From Streptomyces sp. 840.1 (GTDB lineage Bacteria; Actinomycetota; Actinomycetes; Streptomycetales; Streptomycetaceae), in the NCBI RefSeq assembly GCF_003751445.1, contig NZ_RJUU01000001.1, positions 5,322,001-5,386,000 on the forward strand: a DNA stretch of 64,000 nucleotides, read 5' to 3'. Position numbers and translations under genes: made by a program. Shown one piece after another: positions 21,767 through 32,334 of this stretch. A model generated the notes under the pieces. That model made no database searches, was not told the origin of the DNA, and saw nothing but the letters and a program-made list of their open reading frames with translations. Positions within the stretch are counted from its first letter, which is position 1, and every line of letters starts with the position of its first letter.

Positions 21767-22582
21767 CTACGGCTTGCGGCCCACCGCCACGTATCCCGCA
21801 CTGATGATGTCGTCCTGGCCGGGGACCGGTTCGCCGAGCTCGGGGTGCCAGGCCTCGGCGGCCACGATGCCGGGCTCGACGATCTCCAGTCCGTCGAAGA
21901 AGGCGGCGAACTGCTGGCGGTTGCGCGGCGCCAGCGTGAGCGTGTTGGCCTTGTACATCTCGTCGACCTTCCGCGCCTCCTCCGGGTGGAAGTCGGCGGT
22001 GAGGTGCGAGATCACCATGTGGCTGCCCGGCGCCAGGACGTCGCAGAGCCTGCTCGTCAGCTCGTACGCGCCGTCCTCGTCGCTCACGAAGTGCAGCAGC
22101 GAGATCAGCGAGAGGGCGACCGGCTTGCTGAAGTCCAGGGTTTTGCCCGCGTGTTCGAGGATGGCCTCGACGTCGCGGGCGTCCGCCTGCACGTAGTCGA
22201 TCGCGCCCTGCGGGGTGCCGCTCAGCAGGGCCTCGGCGTGGGCCAGCACGATCGGGTCGTTGTCGCAGTAGACGACCCGGGTGGCCGGCTCCGAACTCTG
22301 CGCCACCTGATGCAGGTTGGGCTCGGTGGGTATGCCCGTACCGATGTCGAGGAACTGCCGGATGCCCTGGCTCGACAGCCAGCGGGTGGCGCGGTGCATG
22401 AAGGCCCGGTTCACCTTCGCCATCACCGGAATGCCCGGTTCGAGCGCGAGCATCTGGCGTCCCATCGCCTCGTCCACCGGGTAGTTGTCCTTGCCGCCGA
22501 GGAACCAGTCGTACATCCGCGCGGGGTGCGGTTTGCTGGTGTCGATATGCAGGGAGGTGGCGTCGTTCGCCGGTCGGGACAT
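21767..22582 (-). CDS. SAM-dependent methyltransferase (PF04672/DUF574 type)
   Basis: A 271-residue protein with the hallmarks of the large streptomycete S-adenosylmethionine methyltransferase family once called DUF574. These are RMYDWFLGGKDNYPVD near the N-terminus, the SAM-binding motif I FLDIGTGIPTEPNLHQ at about 98-113, VYCDNDPIVLAHA as motif II, and YVQADARD. Streptomyces genomes carry dozens of paralogues of unknown substrate. The ATG at 22582 follows GGAG-like sequence. It is divergent from the secreted lipase at 22838, with which it may share the promoter region, and is followed by a clear terminator, so it is monocistronic. Confidence 0.88.
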   Translation of the reverse strand: MSRPANDATSLHIDTSKPHPARMYDWFLGGKDNYPVDEAMGRQMLALEPGIPVMAKVNRAFMHRATRWLSSQGIRQFLDIGTGIPTEPNLHQVAQSSEPATRVVYCDNDPIVLAHAEALLSGTPQGAIDYVQADARDVEAILEHAGKTLDFSKPVALSLISLLHFVSDEDGAYELTSRLCDVLAPGSHMVISHLTADFHPEEARKVDEMYKANTLTLAPRNRQQFAAFFDGLEIVEPGIVAAEAWHPELGEPVPGQDDIISAGYVAVGRKP

Positions 22583-22742
22583 GGTGAACTCCAGGGTGCG
22601 TGAGGCATTGGGCGATCAGCTCGCCCCAAGAATAGGGAACTTGCGCGCTCCGGCACTCCGCTTCGGCCGCGCGTCCGGCGCCCTCCGTCGGGCGGGAGGG
22701 CGCCGCCCGGTCCCCGATCGCGGCGCACGCACGCGCCGTAAT

Positions 22743-22786
22743 GGTTACCGCAGCGTAACTTACTGGTGGGTTACCTTCGGTAAGTT
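22743..22786. promoter_or_regulatory. Repeat cluster upstream of the lipase gene
   Basis: Two GGTTACC copies (22743-22749 and 22769-22775) and an inverted repeat AACTTAC (22757-22763)/GTAAGTT (22780-22786) overlap one another 52-95 nt before the lipase start. The arrangement looks like a regulator binding region; the regulator is unknown. Confidence 0.45.
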
Positions 22787-22837
22787 CCGCTGCTAGCTTG
22801 CGCTCACCCGCATTCCGAGCAGAGCGAGGAGTGAGCT

Positions 22838-24244
22838 GTGAGCCGCAAGAGCACCCGTTCGCGTTCCACCTTCGAGGCCGCCGACTCGGCTGTTTCCGCA
22901 CGTCGTTCGCCCTGTGCCGGCGCCGCGCGCGTACTGGCCGTCGCCGTGACGGCGGCCGCCTGCGCGATCACGTACGCCGTACCCGCCACCGCCGCCGATG
23001 GATCCGAGCCCGTGGTGTCCCGGGGGGTGACGATCCCCGGCTTCTACAACCCGCCCGCCGAACTGCCGTCCGCAAACGGCGCTTTGATCCGCCAGGAGCC
23101 GCTACCGCTGGGGCTCGGCATCCCGGGCCTGGACGGCCGCCCGATGCCCGGCACGGCCACCCGGCTGATGTACAAATCGACCGACTCCAACGGGCAGCCG
23201 GTCGCGGTGACCGGCGCCTATATCGAGCCGTCGGCCGCCTGGAAGCGTGGTGGACCGAGGCCGTTGGTGGCGGTGGCCGCGGGCACCATGGGCCAGGGCG
23301 ACCAGTGCGCGCCCTCGATGGCACTCCAGTACCCGCTGACCCTGAACGGCGAGACGGTGTCGGTCGGTTACGAGGCCCTGGCCATCTACCGGCTGCTCGC
23401 CGCCGGTACCGCGGTCGTGGTCACCGACTACGTCGGACTCGGCGCGACCGACCGGCTGCACACCTACGTCAACCGGGTCGATGAGGGTCATGCCCTGCTG
23501 GACGCGGCCCGCGCCGCACACGCCGTGCCCGGCGCCTCCGTCACCCCCGAGTCGCGCACGGGTCTCTACGGATACAGCCAGGGCGGCGGGGCCAGCGCCG
23601 CGGCCGCCGAACTGCAGCCGTCCTACGCACCCGACGTCGAGCTGTCCGGCACCTACTCCGGGGCGCCGCCCGCCGATCTGACCGCTGTCATGAAGGGCAT
23701 CGACGGCAGCGCGCTCGCCGGGGCCCTGGCCTGGTCGATCAACGGCTTCGCCCAGGCCGACCCCGACGTCCGGGCCGTCGTCGATGCCAACATCAACGCC
23801 GCGGGCAAGGCCGCGCTGAAGGACGCCTCGACCATGTGTGTCGGCGACGCGATCCTCGGCTACGGCTTCGCCAGGAGCAGCAAGTGGACCAACAGCGGCA
23901 AGTCCATCGGTGACGTCATCGCCGCCGAGCCCCGCGCGCAGGCCGCTCTCGACCGGCAGCGCATCGGCACCCTCAAGCCGGCCGGTCCGGTGCGCCTGGC
24001 GACCGGCGTCCAAGACGACATCGTGCCCCACGGACAGGCCCGGCAGCTGGCCGTGGACTGGTGCCGCAAGGGCGCCGACGTCACCTATGACGCCATCGTC
24101 CTGCCCAACCTGGGTGACAAGATCCTCACCAACCACGTGGTCCCGCTCATCACCGACCAGGGCGATGCGATCTCATGGCTGACCGACCGCCTCGCGGGCC
24201 GGGCGGCCAAGTCCAACTGCTGGTCCATGCCGATCCAGCCCTGA
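22838..24244 (+). CDS. Secreted lipase-family alpha/beta hydrolase
   Basis: This 468-residue protein has a long Sec-type signal (charged N-terminus, hydrophobic region about 30-50, cleavage near AVPATAADG). The mature part has an alpha/beta-hydrolase fold with nucleophile elbow GYSQG (Ser about 247), DYVGLGATD, and a late VQDDIVPHGQARQLA that supplies the acid. This pattern matches the secretory lipase family (LIP, related to Candida lipase A and actinobacterial triacylglycerol lipases), so it probably hydrolyses extracellular acylglycerols or esters. The GTG at 22838 follows GAGGAG. It appears monocistronic, with a repeat cluster upstream and a strong terminator downstream. Confidence 0.87.
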   Translation: MSRKSTRSRSTFEAADSAVSARRSPCAGAARVLAVAVTAAACAITYAVPATAADGSEPVVSRGVTIPGFYNPPAELPSANGALIRQEPLPLGLGIPGLDGRPMPGTATRLMYKSTDSNGQPVAVTGAYIEPSAAWKRGGPRPLVAVAAGTMGQGDQCAPSMALQYPLTLNGETVSVGYEALAIYRLLAAGTAVVVTDYVGLGATDRLHTYVNRVDEGHALLDAARAAHAVPGASVTPESRTGLYGYSQGGGASAAAAELQPSYAPDVELSGTYSGAPPADLTAVMKGIDGSALAGALAWSINGFAQADPDVRAVVDANINAAGKAALKDASTMCVGDAILGYGFARSSKWTNSGKSIGDVIAAEPRAQAALDRQRIGTLKPAGPVRLATGVQDDIVPHGQARQLAVDWCRKGADVTYDAIVLPNLGDKILTNHVVPLITDQGDAISWLTDRLAGRAAKSNCWSMPIQP

Positions 24245-24300
24245 TCCGGTCCTGTGAACCGTTGACGCCGTGCTCCTGCGGTCTCCTTCAGCAGGCTCGC

Positions 24301-24333
24301 CGCTCCCACCGGGCTGTCGGCCCGGTGGGAGCG
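24301..24333. terminator. Strong terminator between convergent lipase and arsR-type genes
   Basis: Perfect 14-bp arms, CGCTCCCACCGGGC (24301-24314) and GCCCGGTGGGAGCG (24320-24333), around a 5-nt loop, between convergent stops at 24244 and 24355. It likely works in both directions. Confidence 0.85.
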
Positions 24334-24354
24334 GGGTGCGCGTGCCGCGAAGGG

Positions 24355-24744
24355 TCAGCGCGCATCCCGTTCCGCCGCCTCGGCGACGCGCTTGATGTGC
24401 GCCAGCCGCCGGTCCCAGTCGGCTGCCAGTCCCGCCATCCACCGGGCCGTCGCGTTCAGTGCGGCGGGCCGCACCGAGTACCGCACCTCGCGGCCGACCC
24501 GGCCTCCGGTGACCAGGCCGGCCGCGTCCAGCACGGTGAGGTGTTTGACCACCGCCTGGCGCGAGACGGGGAGCTGGCCGGCCAGCGAGGTCGCGGTGGC
24601 CTCGCCCCGGGCCGCGAGCAGGTCGAGCAGCGCGCGCCGCGTCGGGTCGGCCAGCGCGCCCAGGACGCTGTCGACGGCCTCGGCCGAGGAGGCCGCGTCG
24701 GTGGCGTCGAGGGCGCCGGGCACGGCGGGGGATTCCTCCGTCAC
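24355..24744 (-). CDS. ArsR-family winged-helix repressor
   Basis: A 129-residue ArsR-type regulator with the core ALADPTRRALLDLLA, recognition helix SRQAVVKHLTVLDAAGLV and wing GRVGREVRYSV. It lacks the Cys pairs of metal-sensing ArsR proteins. It belongs to the group that is cotranscribed with an SRPBCC/AHSA1 gene, as here. The GTG start at 24744 overlaps the SRPBCC stop by 4 nt. The two inverted repeats at 25257-25306, upstream of the pair, are its probable operators. Confidence 0.88.
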   Translation of the reverse strand: MTEESPAVPGALDATDAASSAEAVDSVLGALADPTRRALLDLLAARGEATATSLAGQLPVSRQAVVKHLTVLDAAGLVTGGRVGREVRYSVRPAALNATARWMAGLAADWDRRLAHIKRVAEAAERDAR

Positions 24745-25187
24745 GAGGAAGGCTGTTCGGCACGCTTCTTGAGCGCGCCGAGCTCCATCGGCCAGCCCGC
24801 GGTGTTGTCCTTGAAGCTACGCCCGCGCAGCTCCTCGGACCCGGGGAGCGTGGCGAATCCGCTCTCGACGACGCGCAGCCGGGTCGCGGCGCCCTCCGGC
24901 GTCAGGGTGAACTCCACCAGCGTGCTGTTGTCCTCGCGCAGCTCCTGCCCGGGGAACGCGCTGGCCCAGCGGTAGGCCAGGTACGTCGGCGGCTCGACCT
25001 TCTCCACCCGTACCGGGAATTCGCCGTACTCGGAGCTCTTGGCCAGCATCAACTCGCCCTCCCTGGCCACGGTGCCGGGCAGGCTCGCCTTGTCGGCCGC
25101 CCAGAACCCGGGCTGCGCCACCAGCGACCAGACCCGGTCGAGGGGTGCTTCGATCAGGGTTTCGCTTTCGATCCGGTCCTCGCTCAT
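24741..25187 (-). CDS. SRPBCC/AHSA1 domain protein
   Basis: This 148-residue START/SRPBCC-like protein has the usual opening IEAPLDRVWSLVAQPGFW and the mid-segment YLAYRWASAFPG. The AHSA1 branch folds as a helix-grip with a deep hydrophobic pocket. Members next to ArsR regulators often bind an unknown small ligand and may feed the sensor. The ATG at 25187 follows AAGGAG. It is the first gene of a two-gene operon with the ArsR regulator. No substrate can be proposed. Confidence 0.87.
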   Translation of the reverse strand: MSEDRIESETLIEAPLDRVWSLVAQPGFWAADKASLPGTVAREGELMLAKSSEYGEFPVRVEKVEPPTYLAYRWASAFPGQELREDNSTLVEFTLTPEGAATRLRVVESGFATLPGSEELRGRSFKDNTAGWPMELGALKKRAEQPSS

Positions 25188-25256
25188 GGGGAGACTCCTT
25201 GAGTGCCGTCGGTGAATGCCGCCGGCGGGCCCCTGTCGGTGGGCGCCGCCGATTGG

Positions 25257-25306
25257 TGCAACCCCAGAGTTGCACGTAACTGATCCGGGAGCAACCTGAA
25301 GGTTGC
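25257..25306. promoter_or_regulatory. Two inverted repeats, probable ArsR operators
   Basis: TGCAAC-N6-GTTGCA at 25257-25274 and GCAACCTGAAGGTTGC at 25291-25306 share the GCAAC/GTTGC half-site and lie 70-120 nt before the SRPBCC start. They are also upstream of the divergent acetyltransferase at 25392, so both directions might be controlled. Confidence 0.65.
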
Positions 25307-25391
25307 GCCTCGCTCGCGGATATCCGTTGCCGCAGCCGGGCGGCGACGCGATCATGGGCCGGTCCTGCCCCATCCCCGTAAGGAATCACCC

Positions 25392-26033
25392 ATGCCAGTG
25401 CCCGCCGACCCCACGGTGCTCCACCCGATGCCCGGCCAGCCGAGGGTGGTGCAGCTCAAGCCGCTGGTGAAGTCCCCGCTGATCGACGTGGGGGAGTACT
25501 CGTACTACGACGACCCGGACGACGCCACCGCGTTCGAGACGCGCAACGTGCTCTACCACTACGGCCCGGAGAGGCTGGTCATCGGCAGGTTCTGCGCGCT
25601 CGGGACCGGGGTGCGGTTCATCATGAACGGCGCCAACCACCGGATGGACGGCCCCTCCACGTTCCCGTTCCCGACGATGGGCGGATCGTGGGCCGACCAT
25701 TTCGACCTGCTGACCGGACTGCCCGGCCGGGGGGACACGGTCGTCGGCCACGACGTCTGGTTCGGCCACAGCGCCACCGTGCTGCCCGGGGTGCGGATCG
25801 GGAACGGCGCGATCATCGGCAGCGGCTCCGTGGTCACCAAGGACGTGCCGGACTACGGGATCGTCGGCGGAAACCCGGCGCGCCTCCTGCGCACCCGCTA
25901 CAGCGAGGAGGACGTCGCCCGGCTGCTCGCGCTGGCCTGGTGGGACTGGCCGGCCGAACACATCACCGAACATGTGCGGACCCTCATGTCGGGAAGCGTC
26001 GACGAACTTGAAGCCGCAGCTCCGCCCGTGTGA
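25392..26033 (+). CDS. Xenobiotic O-acetyltransferase, Vat/CatB family
   Basis: A 213-residue left-handed beta-helix (hexapeptide) acetyltransferase. It has the segment RFIMNGANHRMDG with the catalytic His that defines the Vat and CatB xenobiotic acetyltransferases, followed by a hexapeptide repeat GHDVWFGHSATVLPGVRIG and SGSVVTKDVPDYGIVGGNPA, and a C-terminal WWDWPAEHI. Vat enzymes inactivate group A streptogramins with acetyl-CoA. The sequence is close enough to propose that role, but the substrate is an inference. The ATG at 25392 follows AAGGA. A macrolide glycosyltransferase gene lies 236 nt downstream, which suggests a pair of intrinsic antibiotic-resistance genes. Confidence 0.85.
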   Translation: MPVPADPTVLHPMPGQPRVVQLKPLVKSPLIDVGEYSYYDDPDDATAFETRNVLYHYGPERLVIGRFCALGTGVRFIMNGANHRMDGPSTFPFPTMGGSWADHFDLLTGLPGRGDTVVGHDVWFGHSATVLPGVRIGNGAIIGSGSVVTKDVPDYGIVGGNPARLLRTRYSEEDVARLLALAWWDWPAEHITEHVRTLMSGSVDELEAAAPPV

Positions 26034-26098
26034 CACTCCGTGTGGAACCGGACACATGGCGTGCCGGAAATTCGCGTGCGGGTGTCCGGGACGCGGGT

Positions 26099-26104
26099 TA
26101 GGGT
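26099..26104 (+). promoter_or_regulatory. Putative -10 element TAGGGT for a leaderless transcript
   Basis: TAGGGT fits the Streptomyces -10 consensus TANNNT and ends 7 nt before the ATG at 26112. Transcription would therefore start at or next to that ATG and give a leaderless upstream ORF. No clear -35 is seen. Confidence 0.5.
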
Positions 26105-26111
26105 CTGCGGC

Positions 26112-26138
26112 ATGTATCTCTTCCAGCTCTACGGCTGA
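26112..26138 (+). CDS. Eight-residue leader peptide upstream of the macrolide glycosyltransferase
   Basis: The ATG at 26112 encodes MYLFQLYG followed by TGA. A -10-like TAGGGT ends 7 nt before the ATG, so the ORF should be leaderless. Its last codons and stop (26127-26139) are complementary to two segments (26225-26231 and 26243-26250) just before the ribosome-binding site of the glycosyltransferase gene. In erm-type attenuators a ribosome stalled by macrolide on such a short ORF opens the RNA structure and exposes or extends the downstream gene. The peptide does not show the known IFVI or RLR stall motifs. The role is inferred from position and pairing. Confidence 0.55.
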   Translation: MYLFQLYG

Positions 26139-26260
26139 CGCGGACGGGGCAGTGCCCCGCCCGTGTCCGGCAGGTCCGCGCGCGCCCACGACCCGGCATC
26201 TCCGCCGGGGTGGCCGACGCGCCGGTCAGCCATGTCCTTCCCCCGTAGAGCCGAAAAGAG
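26127..26260 (+). promoter_or_regulatory. Attenuator-like RNA leader of the macrolide glycosyltransferase gene
   Basis: CTCTACGGCTGAC at 26127-26139 can pair with GTCAGCC (26225-26231) and, after a bulge, CCGTAGAG (26243-26250). Between them are a hairpin CGGGGC-agt-GCCCCG (26145-26159) and a larger hairpin at 26186-26213 (CCAC and CCCGGC pairing with GCCGGG and GTGG). The distal arm ends 4 nt before the AAAGAG ribosome-binding site at 26255-26260. The arrangement fits ribosome-stalling attenuation. Confidence 0.55.
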
Positions 26261-26269
26261 TGATCCTCC

Positions 26270-27448
26270 ATGTCCGTCCGCCCTCGCGCACACATCGCCA
26301 TGATCGGTGTCTCCGCCGTCAGCCACGTGCTGCCGAGTCTTCCCGTCATCCGTGAACTGGTGGCCCGCGGCCACCGGGTGACCTACGCCAACGGCCCGAT
26401 GGTGGCCGACCGCATCGAAGCCACCGGCGCCGAACTGGTCCCGTGCGGGACCGTGCTGCCGGTCGCCGACAACAACTGGCCCGACGACCCCATCGCGGCG
26501 ATGACCCTCTTCTTCGAGGACGCCGTCCAGGCCCTTCCGCAACTGCGGGCCTTCTACGACGACGATCCCGCAGACCTCTACCTGTACGACATCGGCGCAT
26601 ACGCCGCGCGTGCGCTGGCCGAATCGCAGAAGCGCCCTCTCATGCAGCTGTCCCCGGCCATCGTCGGCTGGGAGAGCTACGGGCGGGACGTGGCTGCGCA
26701 GTTGTGGAAGCTCCCCGGCGCCGACGCGTACCGGGAGAATTTCGGCCGGTGGCTCGCCGAGTGCGGCGCCTCCACCACCGACATGGACGTCTTCTGCAGC
26801 CGCCCCGCGAACACCCTCGCCCTGATCCCCTGGGCGATGCAGCCGCACGGCGACGACGTCGACACGGACACGGTGACGTTCGTCGGCTCGTGCTCCGGCC
26901 CGCGTGACGGCGAACAGTCCTGGACCCGCCCCGCCGACGCGGAGCGCGTCCTGCTGGTCTCGCTGGGGTCGGCGTACACCGACCGGCCCGAGTTCTACCG
27001 CCGGTGCCTGGCCGCGTACGGCGACCTGCCCGGCTGGCACGTGGTGCTCCAGGTCGGCAGGCACACCGACCGGCGCGAGCTCGGTGACATTCCGTCGAAC
27101 GTCGAGGTGCACTCCTGGGTGCCCCAGCCGGCGATCCTGGAGCAGGCCGACGCCTTCGTGACCCATGCGGGCATGGGCGGCAGTGCCGAGGGACTCTTCG
27201 CCGGTGTCCCGATGATCGCCGTCCCGCAGGGCGCCGACCAGTTCATGAACGCCGACCGGCTCGTGGAGCTGGGCGTGGCCCGCCGTATCGACACCGAGGA
27301 CGCCACGGCGGACGCGCTGCGCTCCGCCCTCACCGAGCTCGTCGACGACCCGGAGGTCGCGCGTCGCTCGGCCGAACTGCGGGCCCAGGTACGCGCCGAG
27401 GGCGGCACCACGAGGGCCGCCGACCTCATCGAGGAGCTGCTCACCTGA
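26270..27448 (+). CDS. mgt: Macrolide glycosyltransferase (MGT/OleD-like)
   Basis: A 392-residue GT-B glycosyltransferase. The N-terminal half, HIAMIGVSAVSHVLPSLPVIRELVARGH around residues 8-35, has the acceptor domain start with His in the usual catalytic-base position of MGT enzymes. The C-terminal donor domain holds HSWVPQPAILEQADAFVTHAGMGGSAEGLFAGVP, and the final signature PQGADQFMNADRL, which binds UDP-glucose. The family inactivates macrolides by 2'-O-glucosylation (S. lividans MgtA, S. antibioticus OleD). ATG at 26270; AAAGAG lies 9 nt upstream. A leaderless upstream ORF and RNA hairpins precede it, suggesting antibiotic-inducible expression. No 23S methyltransferase gene is adjacent, unlike S. 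lividans lrm-mgt. Confidence 0.87.
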   Translation: MSVRPRAHIAMIGVSAVSHVLPSLPVIRELVARGHRVTYANGPMVADRIEATGAELVPCGTVLPVADNNWPDDPIAAMTLFFEDAVQALPQLRAFYDDDPADLYLYDIGAYAARALAESQKRPLMQLSPAIVGWESYGRDVAAQLWKLPGADAYRENFGRWLAECGASTTDMDVFCSRPANTLALIPWAMQPHGDDVDTDTVTFVGSCSGPRDGEQSWTRPADAERVLLVSLGSAYTDRPEFYRRCLAAYGDLPGWHVVLQVGRHTDRRELGDIPSNVEVHSWVPQPAILEQADAFVTHAGMGGSAEGLFAGVPMIAVPQGADQFMNADRLVELGVARRIDTEDATADALRSALTELVDDPEVARRSAELRAQVRAEGGTTRAADLIEELLT

Positions 27449-27550
27449 TCCCGGCGGACCGGCCGGCACCGCCTCCGGGCCGTTGACCGTGAGGGGGGGG
27501 TGACGGGGCGGGGGCGCGGGCAGGCAGGCTGAGGGGCGAGAACGCGGTGC

Positions 27551-27582
27551 GGGGCCGCGCGGTGTGTTCACCGTGCGGCCCC
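27551..27582. terminator. Hairpin between convergent glycosyltransferase and etfA genes
   Basis: GGGGCCGCGCGGT (27551-27563) and ACCGTGCGGCCCC (27570-27582) pair over 13 bp, with one G-U, around a 6-nt loop. It lies between stops at 27448 and 27620. Confidence 0.7.
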
Positions 27583-27619
27583 GGGCCGTTGGATCGACGT
27601 GCTGGTCGTGCGGGTGGGG

Positions 27620-28582
27620 TCAGCCCTTGCGGGTGTTGACCTCTTCGGTGAGCTGGGGCACCACGTCGAACAGGTCGCCCACGACGCCGTAGTCGACGAG
27701 GTCGAAGATCGGGGCCTCGGCGTCCTTGTTGACCGCGACGATCGTCTTGGACGTCTGCATCCCCGCCCGGTGCTGGATCGCACCCGAGATACCCGACGCG
27801 ATGTACAACTGCGGCGAGACCGACTTGCCCGTCTGACCGACCTGGTTGGTGTGCGGGTACCAGCCCGCGTCCACCGCCGCCCGCGAGGCACCGACCGCCG
27901 CACCCAGCGAGTCCGCGAGCGCCTCGATCACCGCGAAGTTCTCCGCACCGTTGACACCCCGGCCGCCCGAGACCACGATCGCCGCTTCCGTCAGCTCCGG
28001 ACGGCCCGTCGACTCACGCGCCGTCCGCGACACCACCTTCGTACCCGTCGCCTGCGCGGAGAACTCCACCACCAGCTCCTCCACCGCACCCGCACCCGCC
28101 ACCGGCTCCACCGGCGCCGAGTTCGGCTTCACCGTGATCACCGCGACACCCCGCGACACCCGCGACTTCGTCGTGAACGACGCCGCGAACGCCGACTGCG
28201 TCGCCACCGGACCCTCCGAACCCGCTTCCAGATCCACCGCGTCGGTAATGATCCCCGAACCGATCCGCACCGCGAGGCGCGCCGCGATCTCCTTGCTCTC
28301 CGCCGACGACGGCAACAGCACCGCCACCGACGACACCACACCCACCGCAGCCTGCAACGCGTCCACCTTCGGCACCACCAGATACTCCGCGAACTGCGAC
28401 GCCTCCGACGTCAGCACCCGCACCGCACCGTGCTCACCCAGTACCTGCGCCGTGGCGCCGGCGCCGGCACCCACCGCCACCGCCACCGGATCACCCAGCC
28501 GCCGCGCCAGCGTCAGCAACTCCAGCGTCGGCTTACGGACCGCACCATCCACATGATCGACAAAAACCAGAACATCAGCCAT
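27620..28582 (-). CDS. etfA: Electron transfer flavoprotein alpha subunit
   Basis: This 320-residue EtfA/FixB subunit carries the FAD-binding C-terminal domain with the diagnostic segments [40 protein letters not shown] (read as two parts around GQTGK), GAIQHRAGM and [12 protein letters not shown]. With EtfB it forms a soluble heterodimer that takes electrons from acyl-CoA and related dehydrogenases and passes them to ETF-quinone oxidoreductase. The ATG at 28582 lies 52 nt behind the etfB stop, so the two form an operon. A TetR-family gene with a candidate operator lies divergently upstream of etfB, which suggests control by an acyl-CoA or fatty-acid signal. Confidence 0.95.
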
Positions 28583-28634
28583 GGAACTTCAATCTCCTGC
28601 ACATCGAGACGGAAACAACGAGGAACGAACGGGA

Positions 28635-29420
28635 TCAGATGAACTTCTGGCCGGCCAGGAACTCCGCCAGCGCCTTGCCGCCCTCGCCCTCGTCCTTCAC
28701 GATCGTGCCCGCCGTGCGGGCCGGACGCGCGGCCGCGGAGTCGACCGCGGTCCACGCACCACCCAGACCCACCTCGTCGGCCTCGATCCCCAGATCATCC
28801 AGATCCAGCGACTGAACCGGCTTCTTCTTCGCCGCCATGATCCCCTTGAACGACGGGTAACGCGCCTCGCCCGACTGGTCGGTCACCGACACCACCGCCG
28901 GCAGCGACGCCTCCAACCGCTCCGAGGCCGTGTCACCGTCCCGACGGCCCCGCACGACCCCGCCCTCGACCGACACCTCCGACAGCAGCGTCACCTGCGG
29001 CACCCCCAGCCGCTCCGCGAGCAGCGCCGGAACCACACCCATCGTCCCGTCCGTCGACGCCATCCCCGAGATCACCAGGTCGTAACCCGTCTTCTCGATG
29101 GCCTTCGCCAGCACCAACGACGTCCCGATCACATCCGTGCCGTGCAGATCGTCGTCCTCGACGTGAACAGCCTTGTCCGCACCCATCGACAGCGCCTTGC
29201 GCAACGCGTCCTTGGCGTCCTCCGGACCCACCGTCAACACGGTGACCTCCGCGTCATCGGCCCCGTCCGCGATCTGCAACGCCTGCTCGACCGCGTACTC
29301 ATCCAGCTCCGACAACAGCCCGTCGACATCCTCACGGTCCAACGTCAGGTCATCGGCGAAATGCCGGTCACCGGTCGCGTCGGGCACGTACTTCACACAG
29401 ACAACGATCCTCAAGCTCAC
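28635..29420 (-). CDS. etfB: Electron transfer flavoprotein beta subunit
   Basis: A 261-residue EtfB/FixA subunit beginning SLRIVVCVKYVPD and containing LDEYAVEQALQI, ALSMGADKAVHVEDD, and DLVISGMASTDG. It carries the AMP site and partners EtfA. The GTG at 29420 is chosen because GGAG sits 8 nt upstream and the product then starts at the usual SLRI. An upstream in-frame codon at 29435 would add five residues. The start lies about 40 nt from the operator-like repeat at 29462-29496 shared with the divergent TetR gene. Confidence 0.94.
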   Translation of the reverse strand: MSLRIVVCVKYVPDATGDRHFADDLTLDREDVDGLLSELDEYAVEQALQIADGADDAEVTVLTVGPEDAKDALRKALSMGADKAVHVEDDDLHGTDVIGTSLVLAKAIEKTGYDLVISGMASTDGTMGVVPALLAERLGVPQVTLLSEVSVEGGVVRGRRDGDTASERLEASLPAVVSVTDQSGEARYPSFKGIMAAKKKPVQSLDLDDLGIEADEVGLGGAWTAVDSAAARPARTAGTIVKDEGEGGKALAEFLAGQKFI

Positions 29421-29461
29421 GCCGGCTCTCCTCACTGATGCGGTTCGTATGTCGACCCTAT

Positions 29462-29496
29462 GGCACTCAGTACCCTGCGTAAAGGTACCAAGTGCC
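29462..29496. promoter_or_regulatory. Operator between etfB and the divergent TetR gene
   Basis: GGCACTCAGTACC (29462-29474) and GGTACCAAGTGCC (29484-29496) are inverted arms matching at 11 of 13 positions with a 9-nt spacer. The left arm recurs exactly at 30336-30348 beyond the TetR gene. Confidence 0.7.
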
Positions 29497-29527
29497 GGAT
29501 GTCCATTTCGGGTGCTACGTTTCCGCC

Positions 29528-30247
29528 ATGACTGAGGACCGCGGACCTGCCAAGAAGCCGCCCATGCGTGACGTGCTTGCCGAGGCGGCCTTCGGCCTCT
29601 TCATGGAGCGCGGGTTCGAGCGGACCACGGTGGACGACATCGTCGCCAGGGCGGGGGTGGGGCGGCGTTCGTTCTTCCGCTACTTCCCTTCGAAGGAGGA
29701 CGCGGTCTTTCCCGATCACGAACGCTGTCTCGCGGACATGACCGCGTTCCTGGAGGCCGCCGACGGCGGCGGCGACCCGGTGGACACGGTGTGCGACGCG
29801 GCCCGGCTCGTGCTGCGGATGTACGCCGTGAACCCGGAGTTCTCCGTGCAGCGCTACCGGCTCACCCGGGAGGTGCCCGGTCTGCGCACCTACGAACTCT
29901 CCGTGGTGCGCCGCTACGAGCGGACCCTCGCCGGGTACCTGGAGCGGCGCGGCGCCGGTACCCGGGACGCCGCGCTCCGGGCGGAGGTGATCGCCGCCTC
30001 GGTGGTCGCGGCGCACAACAACGGCCTCCGGTCCTGGCTGCGTTCGGGCGGTGAGGGCGATGCCGGGGCCGAGGTGGACCGGGCGCTGGAGCTCGTCCGC
30101 ACGGTGTGGGGCAGGGCGGCCGAGCCTTCCGCGGCGCCGCCCGCCGCGGCCTCCGGCGAGGACGAGGTGATCGTGGTGGTCGCGACGAAGAACGCCCCCA
30201 TGTGGCGCGTGGTGCAGCGCATCGAATCGGCCCTCGGCAAGGACTGA
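29528..30247 (+). CDS. TetR-family regulator, probably controls etfBA and the DUF35 gene
   Basis: This protein of 239 residues has an N-terminal TetR helix-turn-helix, TVDDIVARAGVGRRSFFRYFPSKED, at about 30-55, and a helical ligand-binding region without a family name I can give. A 13-bp motif GGCACTCAGTACC lies both in the etfB/tetR divergent promoter and between this gene and the DUF35 gene, so one regulator could control all three units. TetR proteins beside ETF and CoA-ester enzymes usually bind acyl-CoA. The ATG at 29528 starts the protein at MTEDRG. An in-frame ATG at 29492 lies inside the operator and is unlikely. Confidence 0.87.
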   Translation: MTEDRGPAKKPPMRDVLAEAAFGLFMERGFERTTVDDIVARAGVGRRSFFRYFPSKEDAVFPDHERCLADMTAFLEAADGGGDPVDTVCDAARLVLRMYAVNPEFSVQRYRLTREVPGLRTYELSVVRRYERTLAGYLERRGAGTRDAALRAEVIAASVVAAHNNGLRSWLRSGGEGDAGAEVDRALELVRTVWGRAAEPSAAPPAAASGEDEVIVVVATKNAPMWRVVQRIESALGKD

Positions 30248-30335
30248 GCCGGCGGGTCGGGGGCGTTCCCGGGGCCCGCGAGGCACTCCGGAAGGCGTTC
30301 CGAAGGCCATTCCCGAAGGCTGTTGGGCAAGAATC

Positions 30336-30371
30336 GGCACTCAGTACCTTTACGTGCTGGCACTAGGTGCC
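30336..30371. promoter_or_regulatory. Second copy of the TetR operator, before the DUF35 gene
   Basis: GGCACTCAGTACC at 30336-30348 is identical to the left arm at 29462-29474. A degenerate inverted arm, GGCACTAGGTGCC, follows at 30359-30371. The element lies 65-100 nt before the DUF35 gene start. Confidence 0.65.
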
Positions 30372-30435
30372 ATACGGTGCCGGTGTGCCGTCGCCGGAGG
30401 TGCGGCGCACCGAGTCGAGCGCGGGAGGCCGAGAC

Positions 30436-30846
30436 GTGTTCAGTACCGGAACCGATGTGGGGCGGACGGGGCGGACGGCCTGCGACACGGCGGAGCCGCA
30501 CACCGTGGAAGGGCTGGTCTACCAGCTGTGCCGATGGTGCGGCACCGCGTCCTTCCGTAAACTCCTTTGCCCTGTCTGCGCGTCGAGCGATCTCGAACCG
30601 GAACGCAGCGACGGTCACGGCGTCGTCGTACGGTCCAGCGTCGTGAACCGCTATTCGCGGGTGATGCGGAACGAGTCGCTCGTGCGCTTTCCCGAGGGCT
30701 TCGTGTACCGGTGCCGGATCGTGGGCGCGGCTCCCCATCTCGTGAGCGTCGGTGACCGGGTCCGGCCCGTCGACGGTACGACCTCCGAGGCGGGTGAGGT
30801 GGTCCTCGAACTGTGCGACCCGCCCCTCACTGCAGGCTGGTACTGA
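30436..30846 (+). CDS. DUF35 OB-fold protein with zinc ribbon (acyl-CoA-associated)
   Basis: A 136-residue protein with a four-Cys rubredoxin-like zinc ribbon, CRWC at about 32-35 and CPVC at about 45-48, followed by an OB-fold ending VLELCDPP. DUF35/ChsH2-type proteins form complexes with thiolases or enoyl-CoA hydratases in steroid, acyl-CoA and secondary metabolism. No thiolase is adjacent, so its partner is elsewhere. The GTG at 30436 follows GGGAGG; longer in-frame extensions upstream overlap the operator. The shared operator with etfBA suggests the same acyl-CoA-linked regulon. Confidence 0.75.
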   Translation: MFSTGTDVGRTGRTACDTAEPHTVEGLVYQLCRWCGTASFRKLLCPVCASSDLEPERSDGHGVVVRSSVVNRYSRVMRNESLVRFPEGFVYRCRIVGAAPHLVSVGDRVRPVDGTTSEAGEVVLELCDPPLTAGWY

Positions 30847-30984
30847 GACGGCCCGGGGCCGGGCCGGGGGGCGGGAACACCGAATCCGCCCGCCGGCGCC
30901 GCGAACCCTGAGCCGGTGGCGCCGGCTCGAGCGCCGACCGCGTCATGGCGGCGTGCCGTGCCCGGGACGACGGCCGCGGTCAGC

Positions 30985-32334
30985 TCAACGGCGCGGGTAC
31001 ACCGCCACGCTGTACCTGTCGTCGTCCTCGCTCAGATAGACCGCCTCGTTCTTGAGGACCATCGTGGGGATCTCCGTACCGGACGGCTGCGCGCTGATCT
31101 TGCCGGTGCCGATGGCGACATCGACCGGCGCCGAGACGTCATCCCCGTCCGCAGTCACGGTGTGCCCGTAGGCGGTCCCGTCATCGCCGACGGAGGTGAG
31201 TACGACCCCCTTGTCGGTGCCCGTTGCGCCCAGGCAGATCCCCTCGGCCGTGGTGAGATCGAAGGCCAGTACTCCGTGAACGAGATAGCGATGGTCCGCC
31301 GAGAGGGCGGGGTCCACGTCCGTCGGACTGGATCCGCCCGCGCTGTCGCCGGCGGCGCAGGTCGCCGATGCCTTCACTTCCCCGGTGGACTTGTCGTGCA
31401 CTGCCCACATGCGGGTGTCGCCGTCACTGCTGTGCGTCCCCTTCGCGGGCCAGCCGGCGATGATCCAGTCGTCGATCACTGTGAGGCTCTCCGACATCTC
31501 TCCGTACCCGCCCGGACCCTGGGCGCCCGGGGGGACATGGGAGGGGCTGTACCACGCTCCGGGGACCCAGAAATCGTTTCCGCCGCCCTGGATCAGCGGA
31601 CCGCGCGAGGTGACGCCCGCGCTGGAGTTTCCGGGACCGCACAGCCTGCACGCCTTGGAGGAAGGGGACTTGCCCACATCGTCGGTGGAGTACGACGTGG
31701 TCTTCCCGTTCGTCACGTCTATGGCGGTCACCTCCTGGTGGTCGCCGAAATAGGCCAGCAGGGAGCCCTGGGCGGTCGGCAGATCGCTGCTTTCCCGGGC
31801 CGGGATGTCGACGGTGCGCGCCGGGGCCACGGCGCTGCCCGTGGCGTCTGCCGGATAGACCGCGGTGCGGACGGTCGGAGTTCCGTCGGACAGTGTGTCC
31901 TCGCCGGGATCTCCGCTGATGGAAAGGGCGACGTAATCCTTCCCGCCGGCCGTGACGATCTCCGGTCCGGGAAGCTCGCCGCGGACGGAATCGAACGGCC
32001 ACCAGGGCGCTGTCGACCAGCGGACCCGGCCGGTGCCCAGGTCTTTGGCCGTCAGTACGTAGCCGTCCGATGCCTTGGTCACGGTCACCACCAGGCCGGC
32101 GTTGGGAGCGACGGCGACAGGGGACCGGGAACCGGCCGGTTGCGTCCACCCCTTGGTTCCGTCGAACGCCGATGGAACCGGCAGCCGGAGCCGGGTCGCT
32201 GCCGCGTCCGGTTTCCGGGACGGGGACGAGGACTGGGCGCCCGGAGGCTTGTCGGTCCCCGAGTCCCCGCCCCCGCAGGCGCCGAGCGCGCTCACTAACA
32301 GGATCAGGGACGCTGCTTTGACTGCCTCGCGCAT
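30985..32334 (-). CDS. Secreted lipoprotein with predicted beta-propeller (PQQ-like) repeats
   Basis: This 449-residue protein has a lipoprotein signal, MREAVKAASLILLVSALGAC, with the lipidated Cys at 20. A Ser/Pro-rich linker follows at about 21-50. The rest consists of beta-rich repeats of the type VTKASDGYVLTAKDLGTG, MWAVHDKSTGEV and HGVLAFDLTTAEG, spaced as in PQQ-like beta-propellers. A Cys pair at CRLCGPG may form a disulfide. It is an exported, membrane-anchored protein of unknown function, perhaps binding a ligand or partner protein. The ATG at 32334 is preceded by GAAGG. It is transcribed alone. Confidence 0.78.
   Translation of the reverse strand: MREAVKAASLILLVSALGACGGGDSGTDKPPGAQSSSPSRKPDAAATRLRLPVPSAFDGTKGWTQPAGSRSPVAVAPNAGLVVTVTKASDGYVLTAKDLGTGRVRWSTAPWWPFDSVRGELPGPEIVTAGGKDYVALSISGDPGEDTLSDGTPTVRTAVYPADATGSAVAPARTVDIPARESSDLPTAQGSLLAYFGDHQEVTAIDVTNGKTTSYSTDDVGKSPSSKACRLCGPGNSSAGVTSRGPLIQGGGNDFWVPGAWYSPSHVPPGAQGPGGYGEMSESLTVIDDWIIAGWPAKGTHSSDGDTRMWAVHDKSTGEVKASATCAAGDSAGGSSPTDVDPALSADHRYLVHGVLAFDLTTAEGICLGATGTDKGVVLTSVGDDGTAYGHTVTADGDDVSAPVDVAIGTGKISAQPSGTEIPTMVLKNEAVYLSEDDDRYSVAVYPRR

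Follow-up and report, generated by a model that had tools for sequence, protein, structure and literature searches.

The window, i.e. the whole stretch of 64,000 nucleotides of Streptomyces sp. 840.1 that was analyzed, harbors a gene for a macrolide-family glycosyltransferase (MGT), mgt (26270..27448, 392 aa). This gene and the features of the window described below are on the forward strand. Its product scores 370.9 bits against the TIGR01426 profile, above the curated cut-off of 260, and its best PDB matches are chains of the oleandomycin glycosyltransferase. Against NF033129, the macrolide-inactivating subfamily Mgt with a cut-off of 700, the score is 503.8. We infer that this MGT enzyme inactivates macrolides. 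Upstream there is a gene resembling the Vat family of streptogramin A acetyltransferases (25392..26033; NF000311, 244.2 bits, under the cut-off of 300), and 78 nt separate its end from the start of a small upstream open reading frame (uORF, 26112..26138). The uORF has eight codons, MYLFQLYG-stop, beginning with ATG as had been read from the sequence before, and it is predicted to be leaderless. The SD region of mgt, AAGAGTGATCC, is located at 26256..26266, and GAGTGATC or a near form is common to the SD regions of many MGT orthologues. An Rfam scan of 22000-31000 found no relevant family, with one sub-threshold antisense-RNA match elsewhere. A Vat-like acetyltransferase gene is a recurrent upstream neighbor of mgt, being present in the window and at loci L002-L004 and L007.

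According to excerpts of PMC7157823, promoters activated by WblC have the consensus GAAAWY, 3 bp, a -35 element TKGMNN, a spacer of 16-19 and a -10 element TANNNT, and transcription starts 7-8 bp after the -10. In the window, the box GAAATT (26067..26072), which matches GAAAWY, lies 3 bp upstream of a -35-like GTGCGG (26076..26081) that is 17 bp from a -10 element TAGGGT (26099..26104). The -10 is 7 nt before the ATG at 26112, and both the letters and the distance are as first reported. Box, spacer and -10 are thus the same as in promoters of the WblC/WhiB7 regulon, the -35 agreeing at three of its four specified positions, and the promoter scores 9/10 against the consensus. The mean over 100 MGT leaders is 7.6/10, compared with 4.5 in shuffled sequence, and scores of at least 8 are reached by 61% of these leaders and by 0.5% of the shuffled ones. 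The -10 sits 6-7 nt before the start codon in 100/100 leaders, where the detector allowed 6-8. We infer a promoter of the WblC/WhiB7-activated type, with binding of WblC predicted only; a WhiB protein carrying RGRP, an AT-hook-like motif, is among the products of this genome. The transcript is predicted to start at the A of the uORF ATG, 8 bp after the -10, and a start 7-8 bp past the -10, as in the WblC regulon, would render the uORF leaderless. A sigma-70-like scan found no promoter (0), using the TTGACA/TATAAT consensus, which does not cover WblC promoters. The leader of wblC itself in this genome has no Q-I-Y-x-stop uORF behind TANNNT in 900 nt, and leader peptides of this kind are not described in the excerpts of the WblC regulon study (PMC7157823). 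Two Rhodococcus MGT genes (L101 and L111), inspected by eye, have no uORF and seem to follow a WblC-like promoter directly, as leaderless genes.

The uORF was searched for with a pattern composed of the -10, a spacing range, ATG and [I/L]-Y-G-stop as codons [AC]TC TAC GGC TGA. It matched 57 times, in 57 of the 392 genus genomes searched, and in every case (57/57) the aligned stretch of an MGT orthologue follows 97-246 nt after the end of the match; the reversed pattern gave 0 matches in the genomes listed. Among the 77 MGT orthologues above 540 bits, 57 have the uORF. The other 20 comprise three with diverged forms (MLLLQFYG, a GTG-started VNFLQIYG and MAYREIY), one that is unreadable and 16 without any, seven of which have a vat gene end directly upstream. 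In a set of named MGT orthologues picked by protein only (best 80 of 169 matches, 79 distinct), the uORF is present in 40/79, from several families, while most of the remaining 39 evidently manage without it. The simple statistics given in this analysis are inflated by relatedness. Beyond Streptomyces, the genera with the uORF include Nocardia, Rhodococcus, Micromonospora, Sphaerimonospora, Protofrankia, Actinopolymorpha and Marinitenerispora. In a different family of the class, the MGT orthologues carry MHLQIYG, whose stop is TAG, as well as MYFQQLIYG and MYFRQIYE. In the MGT tree, uORF-bearing genes lie to either side of the midpoint root, and at least 10 changes are needed. Conservation of the leader ORF in close relatives, whose absence the first-pass annotation had set beforehand as refuting, is therefore observed, the uORF being kept across genera.

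The 191-nt leader (26112-26302) has a predicted fold of -87.2 kcal/mol (z = -3.24), and 0/200 shuffles were as stable. Its long helix joins 26126..26134 (codons 5-8, GCTCTACGG) as 5' strand to 26243-26251, and 26118..26122 (codons 3-4, CTCTT) to AAGAG at 26256-26260, so that the predicted pairing of the uORF codons extends into the SD region. The 3' strand at 26243..26251, CCGTAGAGC, lies immediately 5' of the SD and is complementary to the end of the uORF, and it is identified by the fold and by pairing tests as an anti-uORF element, of which GCCGTAGACCTGAA is the typical form at the same position in orthologues. Two internal hairpins had been described earlier and are found in the fold, one at 26137-26167, overlapping the end of the uORF stop, and a branched one at 26169-26231. 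The letters of the three proposed arms, CTCTACGGCTGAC (26127-26139), GTCAGCC (26225-26231) and CCGTAGAG (26243-26250), were confirmed. In the predicted fold, pairing of the first arm holds with 26243-26250, but not with GTCAGCC, which lies inside the second hairpin. A full-length alignment of 78 leaders, whose middle is too variable, yielded only a 3-bp artefact in RNAalifold, and pairing was therefore examined leader by leader and in blocks. The helix between the uORF tail and the downstream region exceeds the 95th percentile of shuffled leaders in 74/100 orthologous leaders and the 99th in 40/100; the score of the window's own helix, 25, falls between its 95th and 99th shuffle percentiles. 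In the folded ensemble, 98/100 leaders have at least 5 expected pairs between the tail and the RBS region. The SD-uORF pairing probability has a mean of 0.43 and is above 0.3 in 73/100 MGT leaders, with the 5' half of the uORF pairing with the SD in many. Native uORF-RBS pairs average -26.17, compared with -24.85 (sd 0.24) for relabelled ones, which is 1.3 kcal/mol better and beyond all 20,000 relabellings. The N-terminal half of the uORF alone has a native advantage of 0.6 kcal/mol, about 3 sd and inside the range of relabellings. For a given uORF, its native RBS has a median rank of only 36 of 87, and the helix shows little two-sided covariation.

With a ribosome modelled at the uORF end, the mean opening energy of the RBS falls from 17.2 to 11.7 kcal/mol (a drop of 5.5), compared with 16.5 kcal/mol for a random footprint (a drop of about 0.8), and the effect of the end footprint is the larger in 89/99 leaders. 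A modelled ribosome at the start codon gives 10.9 kcal/mol, a drop of 6.3. Folding therefore does not single out an arrest at the C-terminus, and masking any large part of the uORF would open the RBS in this model.

The consensus over 100 MGT leaders is Q-[I/L]-Y-G-stop. In these 100 distinct leaders, Gln is found in 97, Ile in 78, Leu in 21 and Phe in one, Tyr in 99, Gly in 98 and Ser in two, and TGA in 100. The pattern, which fixed the end codons, supplied 46 of them and the other 54 were found through MGT alone; the latter have CAG in 51, TAC in 53, GGC in 52 and TGA in 54. All 52 Gly codons of the MGT-only leaders are GGC, compared with 802/1234 in MGT genes, which points to a constraint at the nucleotide level. 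The TGA stop says little, because TGA also ends 37/40 MGT genes. Among the 49 MGT-only leaders with the element, in counts uncorrected for relatedness, 36 have a C opposite the first letter of the Ile/Leu codon; G (Val) would pair there, yet is seen 0 times. The Tyr codon TAC is kept in 7/7 leaders whose partner would pair with TGC (Cys). With the pattern-chosen leaders included, these values are 0/84 for G and 15/15 for Tyr. As Ile/Leu and Tyr are kept against better pairing and GGC is fixed, selection appears to act on the uORF at both the peptide and the nucleotide level. A C follows the uORF stop in 48/54 leaders (26139 in the window), compared with 16/40 MGT stops (p 1e-6, without phylogenetic correction), and DUF6243 leaders, treated below, have G, not C, at this position. 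A UGAC stop context may slow termination. The earlier remark that the peptide lacks known macrolide stall motifs extends to the orthologues: RLR, +X+, IFVI and IAVV were searched for and are contained in 0/100 leaders, the scoring covering these four and leaving outside other ERY contexts such as XP and XDK. IAVV is reportedly a macrolide arrest motif, and RLR and +X+ are given as such in the parts of PMC13410324 consulted. We propose that the conserved end Q-[I/L]-Y-[G/E/S]-stop acts as an arrest motif.

Similar leaders precede a second family of genes. A model built from 36 leaders by sequence only was searched in 394 class genomes, 212 of which had a match at E <=0.05, most of these being weak or confined to the promoter part. 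The model found MGT leaders and a second set, MSSFFQIYE and relatives, before DUF6243 (30 fetched loci and four more). DUF6243 (PF19756) is a basic protein of 55-84 residues unrelated to MGT. By protein alone it was detected in 143/246 genus genomes, and among the 30 best-scoring DUF6243-A loci, which were fetched, all 30 have a predicted leaderless uORF, ending in IYE in 29 and in IDE in one. FFQIYE accounts for 27-28/30 of these endings (FFQMYE not counted), with one PIYE and one FFQIDE, and the mean WblC score of the 30 leaders is 8.2/10. The lower-scoring paralogue, DUF6243-B, has MFFQTPI[YH]E-stop in 14/16 fetched loci, and 13 of these 14 uORFs have TANNNT 6-8 nt before the ATG. In the genome of the window, a combined model recovered three strong leaders, those of MGT, DUF6243-A and DUF6243-B, the next match having an E of 7e-4. 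The two DUF6243 paralogues of this genome, at G000:C1:3948362 (L245, L249) and G000:C3:46888 (L279, L325), are preceded by MASFFQIYE-stop and MFFQTPIYE-stop, respectively, both behind WblC-type promoter-like elements. The combined model returned 30 loci from 120 relatives and 15 were inspected: 12 lead into DUF6243, one such uORF is at a contig end and two were unreadable in the stretch used. Several other strong leader matches coincide with MGT by coordinates. The final residue of the leaders varies (G, E, S), and Gln/Pro, Ile (Leu), Tyr and a stop one codon later are mostly kept. In DUF6243-A (23/30 loci analyzed) the SD-uORF pairing probability is 0.74 and the modelled effect of a ribosome 3.0 kcal/mol; in DUF6243-B (14 loci), where the SD is hardly paired (0.04), a ribosome has a small modelled effect of 1.3 kcal/mol. 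Because the layout of the DUF6243 leaders is similar, these leaders seem to make up a small family with WblC-type promoters, and not an oddity of one gene. A literature search, supplements being outside its scope, gave no mention of DUF6243. One class of weak matches (R2, 61 nt, model positions 10-73) was rejected as chance; a fetched case, L327, lies inside an ORF that we take to be uvrA-like.

The reading that we consider probable, with reservations, is that mgt is under ribosome-operated translational attenuation, through an arrest on the Q-I-Y-x-stop leader behind a WblC-type promoter; the arrest and the inducing drug are proposals. From a WblC/WhiB7-type promoter, the mgt message would start with the ATG of the uORF, leaving the latter leaderless. 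The same uORF would supply the 5' strand of a helix, with the anti-uORF element and the SD region on the 3' side, and without a ribosome the leader would hide the mgt RBS. A ribosome arrested at the uORF end, on Q-[I/L]-Y-x with the stop next, would mask this strand and free the RBS, and the macrolide-inactivating enzyme would be made. The arrest may occur at or just before the stop codon, a placement that we favor because the fixed distance from the stop to Ile-Tyr resembles that of the MsrDL leader peptide and the known motifs are absent. The inducer may be a macrolide, or else some other inhibitor that binds in the tunnel or at the peptidyl transferase centre; MGT suggests macrolides and DUF6243 something broader. 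With this, the first-pass reading is supported in part, as comparison and folding favor the leaderless ORF, the pairing with the RBS region and a conserved peptide lacking the stall motifs searched for, and it is extended by the WblC-type box, the pairing of codons 3-4 with the SD and the like leader before a second gene family.

Other explanations have to be weighed. Transcription could be attenuated instead, if a paused uORF ribosome prevents the hairpin at 26137-26167, or Rho, from ending transcription before mgt. Excerpts of the sources describe the actinobacterial cases LmrC, are5sc (PMC12421871, PMC8546547) and wblC itself (PMC7157823) as transcriptional attenuation, with tiaA induced only in translational reporters (PMC12421871, PMC8546547), and the strong GC hairpin after the uORF would be opened by an arrested ribosome. 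Yet no terminator-like site was found in 25900-26500 by a scan that needs a T-tract and is blind to a T-less terminator or Rho, and the pairing of uORF codons with the SD would be left unexplained, which makes such a mechanism unlikely here. It is also rather unlikely that the uORF works without sequence-specific arrest, as a general gauge of ribosome traffic or of start-codon block with codons conserved mainly for pairing with the RBS. The conserved predicted helix, the modelled ribosome at the start codon, which is no less effective in opening the RBS than one at the end, and the nucleotide-level constraints GGC (52/52) and TGA (54/54) of the MGT-only leaders all agree with a gauge of this kind, as does the stalling of ARE5 uORFs (peptides MLV, MRS and MVGDDDISG) at the start codon by LSAP drugs, reported in parts of PMC12421871 and PMC8546547. 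It does not account for Ile/Leu and Tyr being kept where another residue would pair better, nor for IY-x-stop being kept in DUF6243 leaders despite a different RBS sequence.

The leader could also sense amino acids or tRNA, stalling when charged tRNA for Gln, Ile, Tyr or Gly is scarce, and short leaders with regulatory codons are a classical design of attenuators. There is no codon run in the uORF, however, MGT and DUF6243 do not look biosynthetic and Gly is replaceable by Ser or Glu, and we regard a sensor of this type as very improbable. Short ORFs are common, and many MGT orthologues are without uORF, as would be expected if an unremarkable ORF and complementarity had arisen by chance in GC-rich DNA; against the location of every pattern match at one gene, the empty control, the cross-genus conservation and the second gene family, chance is hardly credible. 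Within the preferred reading of translational attenuation through an arrested uORF ribosome, a wider proposal is tentative and in our view rather doubtful: Q-I-Y-x-stop could be a new class of arrest peptide that halts ribosomes on leaderless messages, at termination or just before it, a shared actinobacterial sensor of inhibitors of the peptidyl transferase centre or tunnel that co-controls macrolide inactivation and DUF6243. If this is true, the WblC response would include DUF6243 as a so far overlooked factor that protects ribosomes or acts in stress.

Attenuation through ribosomes is a familiar mechanism; the leader before mgt stands out by the lack of the macrolide motifs searched for, the apparent start at the first nucleotide and a uORF that seemingly is its own anti-RBS strand. 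Translational attenuators of the cat type have a leader ORF, a hidden RBS and its exposure by ribosome arrest. ErmCL and cat leaders have other arrest motifs and their own SD, whereas here the codons of the uORF are themselves predicted to be the strand opposite the RBS region, on a leaderless message. Shared with ErmCL/ermC, in the passages of PMC10219788 consulted, are a leader ORF and an RBS in an RNA structure exposed by ribosome arrest. MsrDL, as described in part of PMC10314930, is a leader MYLIFM before the macrolide-resistance gene msrD at whose stop erythromycin blocks release, and the likeness consists of a very short leader peptide before a macrolide-resistance gene. MsrDL has its own RBS and a UAA stop and frees an intrinsic terminator, and its peptide is unrelated. 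In contrast, the leader of the window is predicted to be leaderless, has UGA (UAG in some relatives), Q-I-Y-x-stop and pairing with the RBS; its peptide, MYLFQLYG, is not MYLIFM-like, and the scanned region holds no terminator-like site in place of the intrinsic one. ARE5 and LmrC are likewise resistance genes of Streptomyces, theirs being under antibiotic-stalled uORFs in the excerpts of PMC12421871 and PMC8546547. Our literature search, covering titles, abstract starts and passages and not supplements, found no description of the leader studied here. Its recurrence before two unrelated genes provides a handle on a long-standing question, that of the nascent peptides and drugs by which ribosomes are stalled and of the step concerned, and nominates DUF6243 as part of a translation-stress response.

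The anti-uORF element is recognisable in 82/100 loci with the uORF (18 are without it) and in 10/57 loci lacking the uORF, a table that left out 13 weaker loci and one unreadable locus; with the 13 included, the latter value is 18/70. The element is also missing in 17/23 uORF-less loci with a nearby vat end. In a tree-aware test the association of uORF and element is not significant, there being only 5 independent contrasts (median p 0.25). Streptomyces griseocarneus (L123) has the element without the uORF, and its neighbor on the tree is a relative with the uORF, a position in keeping with a recent loss. A sister MGT clade (60-63% identity) has at least 10/14 letters of the element in 8 of the 13 weaker loci, with no such uORF. 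There, GCCGTAGACC stands in a conserved block before the start codon at L173, L174, L176-L182 and L184, exact in 6/10 and in near forms in the rest. Because this clade keeps the element without the uORF, which speaks against the preferred reading, the element may have another role. Distant MGT paralogues (L016-L020, L023, L028, L030 and also L172 and L175) carry a palindrome like ACGAGACGTCTCGT just upstream, which suggests a TetR-type repressor in place of the leader.
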